Assembly: GCA_017883235.1 (NCBI GenBank)
Contig: JADGNY010000054.1
Coordinates: 1 to 40,769, forward strand
From: Thermoanaerobaculia bacterium
Lineage (GTDB): Bacteria > Acidobacteriota > Thermoanaerobaculia > Gp7-AA8
Direction of reading: 5' to 3'
DNA length: 40,769 nt
Of this stretch, positions 19,650 to 34,061 are shown piece by piece. Within the stretch, counting starts at the first letter, position 1. Each line of letters starts with the position of its first letter. The notes beneath the pieces are model-generated. The model worked only from the letters and a program-made list of their open reading frames with translations. It searched no databases and was not told where the DNA came from. A program made the translations under genes and the position numbers.

Positions 19650-21278
19650 TTACATCTCCACATGCATATCGGTCTTCTCCGCGTCCTTCGGTGCCTTCAG
19701 GAAGAAGACGAGGGGAAGGACGCAGAGGAACAGGATTCCTGAGAGGTAGAAGAGCTTCTCGAACGAGAGCATCATGGCCTGACGTCGAAGCTGTCCGTCG
19801 ATCATTTGGGCGGCGGCCTGGTGCGCGGACATGACGTCGAGCCCGTGCGCCTGAAGCATGCGCTGGATGCCGGCCATGCGCGCGGCCATGGCCGGCGAGG
19901 ATAGCGAGAAGTGAGACAGCATGTCGCCGCGTGACCTGGTGCTGAAGCGAGCCAGCAGCGTCGCGAATACCGCAATACCGACGGAACCGCCGGTCTGGCG
20001 AAGCAGCGAGTTGAGTCCGGTGGCGTCGGGCAACCTGTGGCGGGGGATTGTGCTGAGAGCCATCGTCGTCAGCGGGATGAACAGGCAACTGAAGGCCACG
20101 CCCTGGATGATCAGAACCTGGACCACGTCCCTGCTCGACGTCGCCAGTGTGTAGTGTCCCATCTGCCAGGCCGTGTAGGCGAAGAGGACGATGCCGAAGG
20201 CGACCACGAGCCGCGGCGAGACTTTGTTGTAGATCCGGCCGACGATCGGCATCACCACAAGCATGCTGAGACTGCGCGGCATCAGGGCGATGCCTGCTTG
20301 CGTGGCCGAGAATCCGAGGAGCAGTTGCATGAACAGCGGCAGAAGGAACGTCACCGCCATCAGCATGGCGAACATGACCGCGCCGATCAGCGTGCCGGAG
20401 GTGAAGACGACATCCTTGAAGAGCGAGAAGTCGACCGCCGGAACGCGCGCGCTCAGCTCGCGGATGACCAGGGCTGCCAGCGAAACGATGGCAACGAGGG
20501 CGATGATCTTGATCTCGCCCGACTGGAACCAGTCGTTGCGGTTGCCCTCCTCGAGCACGTATTGCATGGTGCCGAGACCGAGGAAGAGGAGGGCGATGCC
20601 GCTCCAGTCCATGTTCTTCCGCTGCCGCACGGCCATCGTGTGCATGGCAACGCGAACGTCCTCCGGCTCATGGACGAAGCGGGAGACCATGAGCAGGGAG
20701 ACGATTCCGATCGGGACGTTGATATAGAAGATCCACGGCCACGAGTAGTTGTCGACGATGTAGCCGCCGAGGGTCGGGCCGAAGGCCGGGCCGAGCACGA
20801 CCGCCATGCCGAAGAGGGCCATGGCCATCCCCTGTTCCTTCGGCGGAAAGGTCTGGCGGAGGATGGCCTGCTCGGTCGGCTGCAGCGCTCCCGCACCGAG
20901 GCCTTGCAGGATGCGGAAGAGCACCAGCAGCGGCAGCGTCCTCACCATGCCGCAGAGCGCGGAACCGATGATGAAGAGTGCCAGGCAAACCATGTAGACC
21001 CGCTTCTGCCCGAACAGCCGCGCCAGAAAACCGGTCAGCGGCATGACCATGACCGTGGCGATGATGAACCCGGTGGTGACCCAGGTGATCTGCTCGATGG
21101 TCACCCCGAGCGAGCCGGTGAGGTGAGGGACGGCCACGTTGACGATGGAGGAGTCGATGGCCCCCATCAGCGTGCCGAAGGTGATCGACACGGTGACGAG
21201 CCATTTGTTGACCGGTTTGCGCTCCGGGCGAGTCGTCGCGCCGCCGGCCGCGTCGAACGTCGCGGCGGCGGAGGTCAC
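19650..21278 (-). CDS. DHA2-family MFS drug transporter, EmrB/QacA-like
   Basis: A 542-aa proton-driven drug exporter with 14 predicted membrane helices. Family motifs are visible: MGAIDSSIVNVAVPHL in helix 1 (with the DHA2-type acidic residue), a motif-A-like loop GFLARLFGQKRVYM, and motif C (GPAFGPTLGGYIVDNYSWPW) followed by IFYINVPIG. The start is GTG 21278, overlapping the TolC stop by 4 nt. The C-terminus extends about 30 residues past the last helix (KAPKDAEKTDMHVEM). Confidence 0.95.
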   Translation of the reverse strand: MTSAAATFDAAGGATTRPERKPVNKWLVTVSITFGTLMGAIDSSIVNVAVPHLTGSLGVTIEQITWVTTGFIIATVMVMPLTGFLARLFGQKRVYMVCLALFIIGSALCGMVRTLPLLVLFRILQGLGAGALQPTEQAILRQTFPPKEQGMAMALFGMAVVLGPAFGPTLGGYIVDNYSWPWIFYINVPIGIVSLLMVSRFVHEPEDVRVAMHTMAVRQRKNMDWSGIALLFLGLGTMQYVLEEGNRNDWFQSGEIKIIALVAIVSLAALVIRELSARVPAVDFSLFKDVVFTSGTLIGAVMFAMLMAVTFLLPLFMQLLLGFSATQAGIALMPRSLSMLVVMPIVGRIYNKVSPRLVVAFGIVLFAYTAWQMGHYTLATSSRDVVQVLIIQGVAFSCLFIPLTTMALSTIPRHRLPDATGLNSLLRQTGGSVGIAVFATLLARFSTRSRGDMLSHFSLSSPAMAARMAGIQRMLQAHGLDVMSAHQAAAQMIDGQLRRQAMMLSFEKLFYLSGILFLCVLPLVFFLKAPKDAEKTDMHVEM

Positions 21279-29392: not shown

Positions 29393-29450
29393 CTTCACGA
29401 GGCGTGGTCCCTCGCCGTCAGATCGCAAGCAGCCTGCCGGTCTTGCCCTC

Positions 29451-29478
29451 CCTGGGACCGCGGGCGTCTCGCCCGCGT
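29451..29478. repeat. Single arm of the CCCTGGGA spacer repeat
   Basis: CCCTGGGACC followed by GCGGGCGTCTCGCCCGC, the same arm as in the repeats at 4795 and 22687, without its partner. It lies in the 278-bp spacer between the dipeptidase and the low-GC cassette; I see nothing else of note there. Confidence 0.8.
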
Positions 29479-29657
29479 TGACTCGTACCGAGGCCGAACG
29501 CCCCGGAGGGGGAGAGGCCAGAAAGTACCGAGCCTCACGACTATCCTGCGTCTGACAGTCGCCCTCGGCTTGCAAAGTGACGGAGTTGTGTCCATCCTCG
29601 ACAAACCGACCTACCATCGATCCTTCCGAGGTGAATTCATCGTTGCCGTCTACATCG

Positions 29658-30104
29658 CTACCCTTTAGGAAAGAGCGGCGTTTGGATATCCGTCGGATAC
29701 TCCGCATTGTTCCAGCGGTTCAAGCCCTCTACCACTTCTGTCTGCACCGTTCGATCGGGAAGGTAGAATTCAACGCCCGAGCCGTCAGAGATACGTAACG
29801 CTTGGCGAAATTTGCCAATCTGAATGCGAAGGATCTCGATCGCCTTTTCCTGAACTGCCCTCTTCTCATCCCGCTTTTTCCACTTCGCAAAAAAGCCACT
29901 CGTAATCTCATTCAGAATTGGCTCGATCGGTAAGCGAACAGCCTTTCCTTGCTTGTTCCCTAGCTTCGTTCTTGCAATCTGCATCGCAGCGGCTGCAAGG
30001 ATGCGTTTTGCGAATTGCTGCTGGTTATATTCGTCTCGATCGCTTTCTGACCCCGGCATCCACGCGATGCGATAAAGCGGTCGCGGGTCCTCTTCATCCG
30101 CCAA
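29658..30104 (-). CDS. Cassette protein of unknown function (148 aa)
   Basis: A 148-aa protein, not recognised. The N-terminal half is helical and polar (DRDEYNQQQFAKRILAAAAM), a basic amphipathic stretch follows (FFAKWKKRDEKRAVQEKAIE), and the C-terminal part is more beta-like (GVEFYLPDRTVQTEVVEGLN). There are no cysteines, signal peptide or membrane segments. It is the last gene of the low-GC cassette and overlaps the PD-(D/E)XK gene by 11 bp, so it is made with it and may be its partner. Confidence 0.72.
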   Translation of the reverse strand: MADEEDPRPLYRIAWMPGSESDRDEYNQQQFAKRILAAAAMQIARTKLGNKQGKAVRLPIEPILNEITSGFFAKWKKRDEKRAVQEKAIEILRIQIGKFRQALRISDGSGVEFYLPDRTVQTEVVEGLNRWNNAEYPTDIQTPLFPKG

Positions 30105-30696
30105 CTCGTGGACTGCGAGTTCGCCATCCTGCTACCCGTTGTAGGGCTGGGGGAAGGCCTGACGAGTCGATCACTACTCGGCTGCCCGTGACGCGAAGCT
30201 TCAAGAGACCATGATTGGTGGTCGAAAACTTTGCCTTTTTGAGCTGACCATCGAGTTTGGCGAGTCCAGCCAGTTGGTCATGGTTGCTATCGTGCGCCGT
30301 GAGGTACAGCAAGTGCGTTTTCGCCACGGCACCCGGTTGAAGGGACAGGCAATCGCCAAGCACTATGGGCACTTGCAACAGGAGCGATCGCGCTTGCCGC
30401 TGCGAGCGATCATCGCCGTCTCCAAACATAGTCGCCTTGCATTCGACGATCAGATACTCCTTCTCATGGCCCTTCAGAAGGAGATCTGGTGAGACATTGC
30501 TACTTGCGGCGATACCAGCGTCGCGCAGCGCGCTTGCGAGTCTCAGCGGAAGTCGCAGCTCGGCCTCGATCTGGTGAACTGTATAACCGGCGCGGTAAAG
30601 GACAGGCTCGATACTTGTTCCCGATGAGGGCGTAAGCATCCAGAGAATAGCGTTAATCTGGTATAGGGGGTCGCGCACGAGTTGTTCGGGCGTCAC
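30094..30696 (-). CDS. Putative PD-(D/E)XK nuclease-like protein (200 aa)
   Basis: The central stretch holds a textbook restriction-endonuclease-like signature: Pro70-Asp71 in SNVSPDLLL, 13 residues, then Glu85-Cys86-Lys87 in EYLIVECKA. The hydrophobic strand before ECK and the polar helix after it (DRSQRQARSLLLQ) match the fold. It is therefore probably a metal-dependent nuclease, though some family members have lost activity or bind only. The upstream half (YRAGYTVHQIEAELRLPLRL) is helical. The start overlaps the 399-aa gene by 4 nt, so the two are translationally coupled. The overall family is not recognised. Confidence 0.75.
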   Translation of the reverse strand: MTPEQLVRDPLYQINAILWMLTPSSGTSIEPVLYRAGYTVHQIEAELRLPLRLASALRDAGIAASSNVSPDLLLKGHEKEYLIVECKATMFGDGDDRSQRQARSLLLQVPIVLGDCLSLQPGAVAKTHLLYLTAHDSNHDQLAGLAKLDGQLKKAKFSTTNHGLLKLRVTGSRVVIDSSGLPPALQRVAGWRTRSPRVGG

Positions 30697-31892
30697 GGCG
30701 TCACTCCGTGTTGGACGTTGACATACTCAGAGTACGGGCGATCACCGATCCATACGTTGACTGCAGGATCGAGATATTGCTGAACGTTTGTTACGAGCCT
30801 ATGAATAGAGTTCCCGCACGTCCCACGAGGGATGAGAACAATCATCTGCTGAGGAGTAATCTCGATGAACAGTTGCTGCCACAGGTGTCGGTCGAGAGCG
30901 TAGACGTGCACTTTCGAATGCCCCAAGACGATTGGATCACCCCAAAGGCCGAACCGATTTTGGCGCCGCTGAAATGTCGCTGTGATGAATTTTTCGAAGG
31001 TGTCCTGTAGCAACGGCTCGCTGAACCGAAGGCGCACGGCAGCACCCGTTAGGTTGAACGCAGTTTCCTCATGTTGCCAAGCATCAGCCTCCGTCTTTGC
31101 GATTGTGTTTCGATATGTTTCCAAGACGAATTTAACATGCGCGCGGTGATCGGCGAAGCTTGAGCTGCGATTCGTGGCCTTACCGTTGAAGTAAAAGTCA
31201 TGACCGCCTGTCGATCCATTTGCCGGAAAGCGAAGTTGCGCTATCACATGCAGTGGTGCGTAGAGCGTTCGCATCTTCGGAAGCTTCGCCTGCAGAACTT
31301 CGAGCCGATCGACCATCGTAAACCGAGTTGTGCGGCGCTCGGGGACATACTCATCGGCGTCGGAAAGCACGGCTTCGCCTTCGCCATCGGACTCAATCGA
31401 TTGGTCGAGCGGCGAATCAGTTTCGAACACGCTCGTGTGTTGAAACACGAGTCGCCCAAAACGGCGTGGCTGCTTGTTCTCGAAATTCCACTCGAGTAGT
31501 CGCTCGAATGCATGTCCGCTGATCCACAGCCGATCGAGGTGAGTAGTTGCGTTCACGAGCCGATGCACCCAACCGTCCATGAAGCGCGCTTCTTCGTGAG
31601 AATAGATGACCGGGTGTCGCGGGATGAGGCGCTCAACAAGCCCGACATATCTCTTCGTGGCCCGATCTTTGATCTTGAAAAGTGTATCGTCGATTCGGTA
31701 GATCTCGTGACCGGCCTGGCGGATCGCTTGGAGGAACTCTTGATCGTCCGCGCATTCGGGATCCTCGAGAAGGTAGCTCTTCACGAGCGGCGTGCGTGAT
31801 CGGTTCTGATCGAGTTCCGCCTTTCGCTCGAACGAGTAACCTTCGAGCTGCTCAAACGCAGCCTCGCGCGTCTTGACGTTCGCTAGTTCCAA
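30693..31892 (-). CDS. Large cassette protein of unknown function (399 aa)
   Basis: A 399-aa soluble protein, not recognised. The N-terminus has a charged helix (EAAFEQLEGYSFERKAELDQ). The middle is acidic (DQSIESDGEGEAVLSDADEY) between better-ordered parts, such as WISGHAFERLLEWNFENK. The C-terminal third is mixed alpha/beta (HVYALDRHLWQQLFIEITPQ, QMIVLIPRGTCGNS). There are no Walker, helicase, HNH or HD motifs. The start is TTG 31892, with GGAGAGG 7 nt upstream. It is the first gene of a coupled trio with the nuclease-like and 148-aa proteins and probably forms a complex with them; that is inference. Confidence 0.75.
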   Translation of the reverse strand: MELANVKTREAAFEQLEGYSFERKAELDQNRSRTPLVKSYLLEDPECADDQEFLQAIRQAGHEIYRIDDTLFKIKDRATKRYVGLVERLIPRHPVIYSHEEARFMDGWVHRLVNATTHLDRLWISGHAFERLLEWNFENKQPRRFGRLVFQHTSVFETDSPLDQSIESDGEGEAVLSDADEYVPERRTTRFTMVDRLEVLQAKLPKMRTLYAPLHVIAQLRFPANGSTGGHDFYFNGKATNRSSSFADHRAHVKFVLETYRNTIAKTEADAWQHEETAFNLTGAAVRLRFSEPLLQDTFEKFITATFQRRQNRFGLWGDPIVLGHSKVHVYALDRHLWQQLFIEITPQQMIVLIPRGTCGNSIHRLVTNVQQYLDPAVNVWIGDRPYSEYVNVQHGVTP

Positions 31893-32007
31893 TGGGTAGC
31901 CTCTCCACCCACAATACTTCTACTGGTGGGGTTTGTGTTGCAATTCTACGACATGTAGAGTTTCTGATCGAAGATCAACCACCCGCGCCTGCCCGAAGAC
32001 TCCTTGC

Positions 32008-32598
32008 TCAGGCTAGATTCGTCCCGAACGACTGTGCTCGGTACTGCAACACCGTCAGGTAGACCTCGTCGAAAAACGCGCTCAGTGGTCGTTGGCTGCT
32101 GCGGTGCTCTGCGATGATCTGATCTTTGTCAGAGTCCCCGATCCAGCCGTGAAACATCAACCACCCGAAGAGATGAGGCGTTGTCTGCACGGCGGCTGGT
32201 TCGAGCACCGACTGCGCGAGCGTTCGGGCGCGTTGGTCATCGGTGATGAACGCCTGACCGGTTCTCTTTGCGAAGGCTATCGAAGCAAGTTCACCCTTTC
32301 CGAGACGCCTTCGCTGCTGCAAGATCTCCACATCGTTGAGGTCATCAATGTCGAGGTGATGTGCCATGAAACGCCCGAGGGATTGCTCCTTCTTCAGGCG
32401 CGCGACAAGTGTCGAGTCAGCTGCGTTAGTTGACTTTCGCGGTTTGTGCAAGCATTCGTAGATGACGAAGGCGGTGCAACAGAAATGGCAGCCAGCGTCG
32501 GTAGCTCGTGCGGCAAGCAAACGCGATGACAGGATGTTCCACACTGCGCACGTGTCGGCAACATTTAGTTTCGCAAACGTTCGTGGATCAACTCCCAT
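32008..32598 (-). CDS. PIN-domain-like protein
   Basis: A 196-aa protein with the acidic residues of PIN-fold ribonucleases: Asp15 (NVADTCAVWNILSS), Glu49 (FVIYECLHK), Glu103 (GKGELASIAFAK) and Asp120-Asp121 (AFITDDQRAR). The phrase KGELASIAFA...FITDD resembles the DUF3368/DUF4411-like PIN group often found as toxins. The start overlaps the XRE/ImmA gene by 11 bp, so the two are produced together, as in HTH-protease/PIN gene pairs reported as putative toxin-antitoxin systems. Which partner is toxic is not evident here. It is separated by 115 bp from the trio downstream. Confidence 0.8.
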   Translation of the reverse strand: MGVDPRTFAKLNVADTCAVWNILSSRLLAARATDAGCHFCCTAFVIYECLHKPRKSTNAADSTLVARLKKEQSLGRFMAHHLDIDDLNDVEILQQRRRLGKGELASIAFAKRTGQAFITDDQRARTLAQSVLEPAAVQTTPHLFGWLMFHGWIGDSDKDQIIAEHRSSQRPLSAFFDEVYLTVLQYRAQSFGTNLA

Positions 32599-33727
32599 AT
32601 TGGAGCTTTTCCGAGTACATGTCGAGCACCTCGTGCAACTCGGCTTCGCACGATAACAAGAGCATCTCAGAGAGTCGTGCCGCTGAGACTTCAGCCCGAT
32701 CGTAGGCCTCGAAGCAAAGATTTACGTAGCTATCCGAAAGACCTCGCTCGATCATCGTACGCTTTCGTTCGAGTGTTCGCGTGGGCAGATGCAGGGGCAG
32801 TTCGGCATCGATCTTCGCTTCCCGGGGTACTCGACCTTTCGCGATGATTCCGCGACGGTTGTCGTCGATGAGTTCCGCATCCTTGAGCGCGAGTGCAAGC
32901 GTGAACGTGTTCACTTTGAGCTTAGTCGCCCACTCGACAGCCTGATCGGACGTGAGCCTGAAGTCACTTTGAACGCCTTGGAGGAAGTCTGGCGGGACGA
33001 GGTATCGTGCCGCAAACGCGTTGGCTCGAACCTCTCGCAGGTCCTTTCCTTGATGCTCGAACGTCACGACGAAGTCTTCGTCTACGTCGAGTAGAGCATG
33101 CGCGGCTTCGTGCGCAGCTGTAAATCGCTGCCGGAAAAGATCTTCCGAGTAGTTGACCATGACGCAGCTTCCAGCGAATGGGTGTCGTACATACACGCCT
33201 GAAATGTTCGAGTTCTCAAGTTTTCGGCGAAAGATGTGGACGCCGATACGTCGAAAGTCCGCGAACACGTCGGACGGGATCTCTGCCGATGTGTACCCGA
33301 GCGCAGTCCGCAAGTCAGCTGCGGCTTTCTGGCCCTGAGCCTTGAAAAAGCCACCGGTCTTGGTAGCGGCGAATGATAGCTTCTGTTTCTCGAGAACGCC
33401 CTGCAGAAAGGCCTCACATTCAGAGAGGAATAGGCACTCTTGGAGAGCCCATCGATCTCGAGGCGAGAACGCAGCGCCATGCTTCCGAAACAGTTTTTCA
33501 GTCTGGTCGATCGAAGCTGCCTGCTCGTTCGAAATGAGAAACCGGTAGTCACACTTGAAGAAGTCAGCCAGGATCAGAATCTCATCGCCTGTCGGTGCAC
33601 GACGCGCTTCTTCGATTTCAGAAAGATCACGGATACCGGTTGCTTCCGCGACGGCTTCGATGGACATCTCGAACTGCTCGCGGTAGCGGCGGACCTTCCG
33701 GGCCAGGAGATTCAAGTCGACTGCCAT
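32588..33727 (-). CDS. XRE-type HTH regulator with ImmA/IrrE metallopeptidase domain
   Basis: A 379-aa protein with two domains. Residues 1-65 form a Cro/C1-type helix-turn-helix (KVRRYREQFEMSIEAVAEAT ... PTGDEILILADFFKCDYRFL). Residues about 150-260 are an ImmA/IrrE-like protease with HEAAH at 206-210 and a third-ligand region at Glu232 (REVRANAFAARYLVP). Such proteins control mobile elements and stress genes by cleaving a repressor, or act as antitoxins. About 100 C-terminal residues are of unknown role. A TAATGT box ends 6 nt before ATG 33727. It is the first gene of the cassette and a likely regulator of it. Confidence 0.92.
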   Translation of the reverse strand: MAVDLNLLARKVRRYREQFEMSIEAVAEATGIRDLSEIEEARRAPTGDEILILADFFKCDYRFLISNEQAASIDQTEKLFRKHGAAFSPRDRWALQECLFLSECEAFLQGVLEKQKLSFAATKTGGFFKAQGQKAAADLRTALGYTSAEIPSDVFADFRRIGVHIFRRKLENSNISGVYVRHPFAGSCVMVNYSEDLFRQRFTAAHEAAHALLDVDEDFVVTFEHQGKDLREVRANAFAARYLVPPDFLQGVQSDFRLTSDQAVEWATKLKVNTFTLALALKDAELIDDNRRGIIAKGRVPREAKIDAELPLHLPTRTLERKRTMIERGLSDSYVNLCFEAYDRAEVSAARLSEMLLLSCEAELHEVLDMYSEKLQYGS

Positions 33728-33733
33728 GCTGTG

Positions 33734-33739
33734 ACATTA
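33734..33739 (-). promoter_or_regulatory. -10-like box TAATGT of the cassette
   Basis: On the minus strand GATAATGT precedes the XRE/ImmA ATG; TAATGT ends 6 nt before it, with no ribosome site. Probable promoter of the cassette, and possibly autoregulated by the HTH protein. Confidence 0.38.
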
Positions 33740-33851
33740 TCCTCCTGCGAGCTAACTCGGGGTCCTAAGGTGCAGCCGAAGAGGCACGATGTGCGTTAGC
33801 TGTTCGAGGAGCCGAGAGTGACGCGGACAGGCACCTCCCCACAGCTTCTTG

Positions 33852-34061
33852 CAATCCGCGCATTCGCCATGTACTCGGCGGACTCGCGATGCATCCGACG
33901 GGTTTCCGTGCGCACTCGACGTGTTTCCGCGCCGGCCGGACGATGTACGCCTCCGCCCGGACGATGCGCCGCTCCAACCGGACGATGTACTGCGCCAGCC
34001 GGACGATTTATGGCTCCAGCCAGATGGCGCGCCGTCCTATCCGGACGATGCGCCCACCTAC
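33852..34061. repeat. Second 21-bp tandem array, CCGGACGAT units
   Basis: Units CCGGACGATG-n11 start at 33936, 33957, 33978, 33999, 34020 (degenerate) and 34041, exactly 21 bp apart; weaker units can be traced back to about 33852. The sequence is unrelated to the 21-bp array at 16876. It fills the space between the divergent cassette and the LolC/E gene. The rest of 33728-34150 contains the two promoters and nothing else I can name. Confidence 0.85.

Follow-up and report, generated by a model that had tools for sequence, protein, structure and literature searches.

A conserved gene pair with a predicted PD-(D/E)XK nuclease beside a predicted XRE-ImmA/PIN toxin-antitoxin module in an inserted cassette of a Thermoanaerobaculia bacterium

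Positions 29658-33727 of a 40,769-nucleotide stretch of Thermoanaerobaculia DNA (GenBank assembly GCA_017883235.1, contig JADGNY010000054.1; the whole stretch is called the window hereafter) hold five open reading frames (ORFs), all on the minus strand, and raise the question whether these form one system or several. An earlier reading made from the letters alone (the sequence-only reading) had described a helix-turn-helix protease, a PIN protein and a trio of 399, 200 and 148 aa. It had left the choice between one undescribed five-gene defence system that includes its regulator and two adjacent units, a toxin-antitoxin module and a nuclease operon, and had proposed a PADLOC search, a neighbourhood survey and structure prediction as checks. 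The ORF coordinates agree with its account of five minus-strand genes with overlaps of 11, 4 and 11 bp. These overlaps are real, whereas the description as tightly packed does not extend to all five ORFs, as a 115-bp intergenic gap (31893..32007, minus strand, from the ORF coordinates) follows the first two genes, named genes 1 and 2. The best explanation of the cassette is an island with two independent modules: genes 1-2 and a conserved gene pair, A and B. The supposed trio is actually a duo, its 200- and 148-aa ORFs together making up a single, split B gene.

Gene A (399 aa, 30693..31892, minus strand) is the first member of the pair. The pair occurs in some 35 loci of bacteria and archaea alike, from Acidobacteriota, Bacilli, Halanaerobiales and Chloroflexi to candidate phyla. 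B stands directly after A nearly everywhere, in about 30 loci of many phyla, usually with an overlap of 4 or 8 bp. Relatives of A were found on 29 genome contigs (Acidobacteriota, Aminicenantes, Bacillota, Halanaerobiales, Chloroflexi, Brocadiia, Methanothrix and others), on four plasmids (of Metabacillus, Lysinibacillus, Halobacterium and Methanocaldococcus jannaschii) and on one viral contig; an initial scan of genome contigs with a single-protein query had returned none. As the loci were gathered by searching with A, loss of A is under-seen among them. Within the phylum, A is present in 5 of 396 genomes, namely the window genome and four others, and all four genomes of this survey that hold B also hold A; no A was detected in the same-genus, family or class relatives of a 61-genome set. 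Neither protein belongs to a named family in Pfam or NCBIfam, in the proposed search of PADLOC-DB 2.0.0 nothing meaningful matched A, B or any relative of theirs, and the same holds for a PDB sequence search. In the literature we found neither a clamp-binding anti-phage nuclease nor a described A-B system. The pair is a two-gene system without a name in the libraries searched (Pfam, NCBIfam, PADLOC), and to this extent the word "undescribed" of the sequence-only reading stands, while its "defence" is read from genomic context.

In almost all relatives, B is a single ORF of 332-368 aa. Its N-terminal half in the window is the 200-aa ORF (30094..30696, minus strand), which overlaps A by 4 bp and matches residues 10-208 of the single-ORF B of L033/L014 with 42% identity (E 4e-53), and its C-terminal half is the 148-aa ORF (29658..30104, minus strand, TTG start), matching residues 220-365 of the same protein with 31% identity (E 3e-22). 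Since both ORFs match one single-ORF B in different frames, and a B profile recovers both pieces, the 148-aa ORF is the C-terminal half of B and was ruled out as an independent family. Direct sequence comparison of this ORF with distant B proteins gave nothing; only a nearer Acidobacteriota relative revealed the link, and a split gene can in this way pass for an additional unknown cassette component, as it did here. When the L033/L014 B protein is aligned to the window by tblastn, the match runs in frame -3 until 30127 and in frame -1 starting from 30098, which places a +1 frame change in the stretch 30094..30134 (minus strand). It falls in the interdomain linker of a structural model of B (residues 191-230), where confidence is low with a predicted local distance difference test score (pLDDT) of 64-68.

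The C-terminal half also evolves faster. In pairs of intact relatives the ratio of C-terminal to N-terminal identity of B is about 1.03, compared with a mean of about 0.84 in pairs with the window, and on a fixed tree the window branch measures 1.42 for the C-terminal and 0.77 for the N-terminal part, as against 0.64 and 0.52 for the sister branch; the comparisons are not independent of each other, having one sequence in common. The acceleration points to relaxed constraint on the B of the window and suggests, as far as sequence comparison goes, that the split is real and not very recent rather than a mere sequencing error. An error as the sole cause appears less likely, and comparison of the neighbouring genes with the same-genus genome showed no second frame of the kind expected from an error-rich assembly. 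Breaks in B occur in L056, L061 and L015 as well, and no B follows A in L035. Programmed frameshifting was considered and is unsupported, because the other genes break at different positions, early in L056 and L061 and late in L015. Whether the second module of the window is simply decaying, with B dead through its frameshift and only genes 1-2 functional, is nearly an even question, and decay here would be compatible with any reading of A-B elsewhere. The frame change, the accelerated C-terminal half and the further broken B genes speak for it. On the other side, both halves keep an open frame, the codon-position GC pattern, the catalytic residues and the terminal motif, and the break lies in the linker, so that a two-piece enzyme is possible. 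The B of the window is either a tolerated two-piece enzyme or at the first step of loss.

Returning to B across its relatives, the PD-(D/E)XK assignment made earlier for the 200-aa ORF holds, as a motif of the type PD..ECK is present. The predicted catalytic motif, located from alignments of the B proteins, reads D71...E85-C86-K87 (30436..30486, minus strand). The P, E-C-K and the subsequent Q are kept in at least 90% of B proteins (alignments A2 and A6), with D or E as the first acidic residue, and five of 26 B proteins match HSDR_N_2 weakly. The AlphaFold2 model was built for the single-ORF B of an Acidobacteriota relative (pLDDT 86) and divides into a nuclease domain, spanning about residues 10-212 according to its structural matches, and a C-terminal domain of about residues 236-357. 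Many of the nearest solved structures of the nuclease domain are PD-(D/E)XK enzymes, among them BsmI (Z 6.5, root-mean-square deviation (rmsd) 3.7, 146 residues), SfsA (Z 5.7), McrBC (5.3) and EndoMS (5.2). As an observation apart, the B ORF of L059 (9103-10113) is open and lacks the E-C-K motif; it possibly encodes a catalytically dead B.

At its very end, B carries a short peptide resembling those that bind sliding clamps. A QL[S/D]LF-type motif lies within the final 22 residues of 18 of the 28 B proteins, against an expectation of 1.1 derived from windows in the bodies of these proteins; examples are DQLSLF (L004), EQIPLF and SQPSLF, and the B tail in the window has QTPLF (29670..29684, minus strand). 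A comparable tail, [E/K][L/Y][T/R]LF, is known from the C-terminus of actinobacterial NucS, a PD-(D/E)XK mismatch endonuclease in which the C-terminus is required for sliding-clamp binding and activation (PMC8228993). By analogy with this clamp-activated enzyme, B may act in a similar manner, and we place A-B among the clamp-associated PD-(D/E)XK nuclease systems. EndoMS/NucS and B share a nuclease of this superfamily with a C-terminal clamp peptide, in the case of B by motif only. They differ in that NucS has an N-terminal DNA-binding domain followed by the nuclease domain (PMC8228993), whereas B has its nuclease first, shows no detectable sequence match, is always paired with A and is sporadic in distribution. 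B is not a NucS: the domain order is reversed, and a sequence relation was not found.

For A, an AlphaFold2 model (mean pLDDT 86.4) predicts a saddle-like fold of the RdgC/CENP-L/TBP kind. The best structural match is CENP-L (Z 8.6, rmsd 4.9, 195 residues; Foldseek E 4.8e-4), Iml3 matches as well, E. coli RdgC follows with Z 6.6 over 193 residues, and the C-terminal part of the model weakly aligns with TBP and with AdoMetDC-type folds. Since a resemblance of Iml3/Chl4 to RdgC and TBP has already been published (PMC4080450), the CENP-L, RdgC and TBP matches of A are mutually consistent. A differs from these saddle proteins in having no detected sequence similarity to them and in being paired with a nuclease, and the matches lie near background. 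Its polar residues K38, E43, R92, D120, H249, E268, D334, H336, C359, N361 and R365 are invariant across bacterial and archaeal members. All 31 A members match phrog_22469, an uncharacterised PHROG family, apart from which tblastn revealed no phage relatives of A; in a Foldseek comparison with viral models, a Klebsiella phage RdgC came fourth, with an E of only 0.04.

The neighbourhoods of the pair vary. Upstream of A, eight Bacilli-type loci carry a PemK/MazF-domain gene of about 240 aa; in seven it is the immediate neighbour, and in L006 a transposase gene stands between the two. In Bacillus sp. 522_BSPC (L050, 1164-6879 and 7039-10198) the MazF-like gene and A-B sit directly behind TnsB/TnsC/TnsD-type genes and are probably cargo of a Tn7-like transposon, and in Metabacillus idriensis (L044, 5031-6761) a reverse transcriptase-trypsin fusion gene precedes the MazF-A-B set. 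Restriction-type genes are found in the almost gapless order ResIII helicase - A - B - N6/N4 methylase in L038, as methylase - A - B - ResIII in L015, as A - B - methylase in L036, as A with a related helicase in L017, and as a methyltransferase-helicase fusion upstream of A-B in L052, while A-B lies near a C5 methylase in L047. Three Halanaerobium genomes (L055, L056, L058) carry the pair in an identical place beside flagellar genes of the opposite strand, and only in L056 is B frameshifted. On the M. jannaschii plasmid (L003, NC_001732) the archaeal relative adjoins the gene of a nuclease of the OLD family together with an uncharacterised gene, and genes of the VapBC type follow downstream. 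Genome G064, of the same phylum as the window, retains at L016 (6992-7663) an A shortened by an internal deletion and, on a separate contig, a fragment of B, which together are what is left of a decayed pair.

We propose that A-B may be a clamp-tethered nuclease that acts on replicating foreign DNA with A as its DNA-binding or controlling partner, a reading that we hold to be evenly poised between right and wrong. B would be a DNA nuclease of the PD-(D/E)XK superfamily, extended by a second domain at the C-terminus and by a terminal peptide docking on the sliding clamp (DnaN), and A would be its saddle-shaped partner, which probably binds DNA and either positions or restrains B. The complex would load at active replication forks via the clamp and would cut DNA under replication, be it phage or plasmid, if A recognises it as foreign or abnormal. 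Computation shows the constant order and adjacency of A and B, the catalytic motif, the enrichment of the terminal motif, the single-ORF B of relatives, the insertion and the split, whereas DNA binding by A, clamp binding, cleavage and a role in defence are inferred. Counted in favour are the conserved pairing, the PD..ECK motif and the PD-(D/E)XK enzymes among the fold matches of B, its clamp-type tail with the parallel in NucS, and the likeness of A to CENP-L and RdgC. The sparse presence in the phylum, the empty site in a same-genus genome described below, the plasmids, the viral contig and the Tn7-like cargo together amount to a sporadic, mobile distribution, and the restriction-type helicase/methylase and MazF neighbours are those of a conflict setting from which a defence role may be read.

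Several points weigh on the other side. The proposed structure prediction gave a saddle-like A and a PD-(D/E)XK-like B with modest matches only: the top Z of A barely exceeds the usual background of 7-8, and every Z of B is below 8. The clamp motif is absent or imperfect in about a third of the B proteins, including the haloarchaeal one, and clamp docking is deduced from a short motif. Most A-B loci lie amid housekeeping genes and have no further defence genes around them, a setting that would suit repair as well, and most lack a cognate methylase that would explain discrimination between self and non-self. The fuller version, in which A-B is an unnamed anti-mobile-element system spread across bacteria and archaea, consisting of a clamp-delivered nuclease and a controller of the CENP-L/RdgC/TBP fold with the nuclease in two pieces in the window, is held to be rather unlikely. 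If the proposed reading is right, A-B is a two-gene system of wide occurrence to which the libraries searched give no family name, host-clamp-guided defence nucleases would explain how replicating invaders are found without a cognate methylase, and the predicted tie of A to RdgC and to the kinetochore protein CENP-L would give this fold a prokaryotic branch in conflict systems. The conserved C-terminal peptide of B, a predicted DnaN binder, offers a testable handle.

The clamp-tethered defence reading is favoured over three other accounts of the pair. The strongest of these, although unlikely, is an accessory NucS-like nuclease of repair or recombination, in which the clamp would bring B to mismatches or stalled forks and A would serve as an RdgC-like DNA-binding subunit. 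It shares the clamp-type peptide of B, draws on EndoMS/NucS and RdgC appearing among the fold matches, and agrees with the many loci amid housekeeping genes and the position kept in three Halanaerobium species. The very sparse and mobile distribution, the restriction, MazF and retron-type reverse transcriptase neighbours and the repeated loss of B speak against a repair function.

A toxin-antitoxin-like pair, with B as a toxic nuclease and A, encoded first and overlapping B, as its inhibitor or regulator, is less likely again. Such an arrangement would account for A being retained where B is frameshifted or absent (the window, L015, L056, L061 and L035), and the toxin gene of MazF type that precedes A in eight loci of the Bacilli type would suit it. 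The first of these arguments is weakened by the collection of the loci via A, through which the reverse loss is less visible, and A exceeds typical antitoxins in size, while its many invariant polar residues suggest an activity or a ligand of its own.

Somewhat further down in probability, A-B could supply the DNA-cutting component of a restriction-modification system resembling type III, of the form ResIII - A - B - N6/N4 methylase, with solitary copies, that of the window among them, as orphans. The near-gapless helicase-A-B-methylase run of L038 and the similar sets of L015, L036 and L017 are what such a system would look like, and in L015 and L038 the pair adjoins both a ResIII helicase and an N6/N4 methylase as in Mod/Res systems. 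At least 25 other loci, however, have neither helicase nor methylase adjacent, no Mod or Res gene stands beside the window cassette, and A and B are themselves neither Mod nor Res. Very improbable is finally the union of all five genes in a single new defence system that carries its regulator with it, for which their joint insertion as one low-GC block could be cited, as the 115-bp gap parts the two pairs and phmmer of genes 1-2 against the ORFs of the other A-B neighbourhoods scanned found no relative of either gene, which largely refutes it.

Having set the five-gene system aside, we turn to genes 1-2, for which the second option of the sequence-only reading, a helix-turn-helix-protease/PIN toxin-antitoxin module beside a separate nuclease operon, fits: in every other neighbourhood scanned in the proposed survey A and B travel together without genes 1-2, and fusions of XRE with COG2856 beside PIN toxins were predicted by Makarova et al. 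(2009, PMC2701414) to form toxin-antitoxin operons. Gene 1 (379 aa, 32588..33727, minus strand) fuses an XRE helix-turn-helix to an ImmA/IrrE (M78, COG2856) metalloprotease, as foreseen, with Pfam matches above cut-off to PF06114 (E 1.3e-17) and PF01381 (E 1.3e-6) and an HEXXH motif that reads HEAAH. It also matches several PADLOC models of RmrA, the antitoxin of RosmerTA (E 2.4e-16), and phrog_2439 (E 1e-26). Gene 2 (196 aa, 32008..32598, minus strand), which overlaps gene 1 by 11 bp, probably encodes a PIN-domain RNase. Acidic motifs of the PIN type are visible in its sequence (ADTCAVW, GKGELASIA, ITDD), while its Pfam score for PIN is weak and under the cut-off (PF01850, E 0.026); PADLOC matches are PDC-S70 (E 3.6e-5) and PDC-M69C (E 0.008).

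Judged by its sequence, the gene couple is predicted to be a member of the already described XRE-ImmA/PIN kind of predicted toxin-antitoxin, in which gene 1 would act as antitoxin and regulator and gene 2 as RNase toxin. It departs from the published kind in the divergence of gene 2 and in gene 1 having no close relative at E 1e-20 in 297 genomes of the phylum; for gene 2, no relatives were found in 396 phylum genomes, plasmids or viral contigs. With RosmerTA (RmrA/RmrT) it shares the RmrA-like scores of gene 1, whereas gene 2 is PIN-like and matches no RmrT model (the presence of an RmrT model in the library was not checked).

In a same-genus genome, G254, the cassette is missing (locus L029). 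There, the identical flanks, a dipeptidase and a LolE-like transporter gene, are separated by 298 bp, compared with about 4.8 kb in the window, and the cassette is for this reason an insertion, a point overlooked in the sequence-only reading. DNA identity between window and G254 is 83% for the dipeptidase and 85% for the LolE-like transporter gene. The inserted stretch extends approximately over 29408..34036 (strand not applicable). The low GC content noted earlier is borne out, with 0.553 for 29658-33727 and 0.563 for 29408-34036 against 0.641 elsewhere in the window. The adjoining ORFs are housekeeping genes, and neither an integrase nor a tRNA marks the cassette. Promoter and terminator scans and Rfam returned nothing. 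The 115-bp gap contains three short inverted repeats; operator-like palindromes were rejected there, as the repeats are not clearly beyond chance.

Two minor observations concern other features of the window. According to ARAGORN, positions 20522-21137 hold a tmRNA-like gene with the tag APENRSAA, which overlaps long ORFs and is probably spurious because Rfam reports none. Apparently missing at the same-genus empty site is a 21-bp minisatellite of the consensus GCCGGACGATGTACGGCTCCA, which occurs in several imperfect copies at 33890-34050, just upstream of gene 1.

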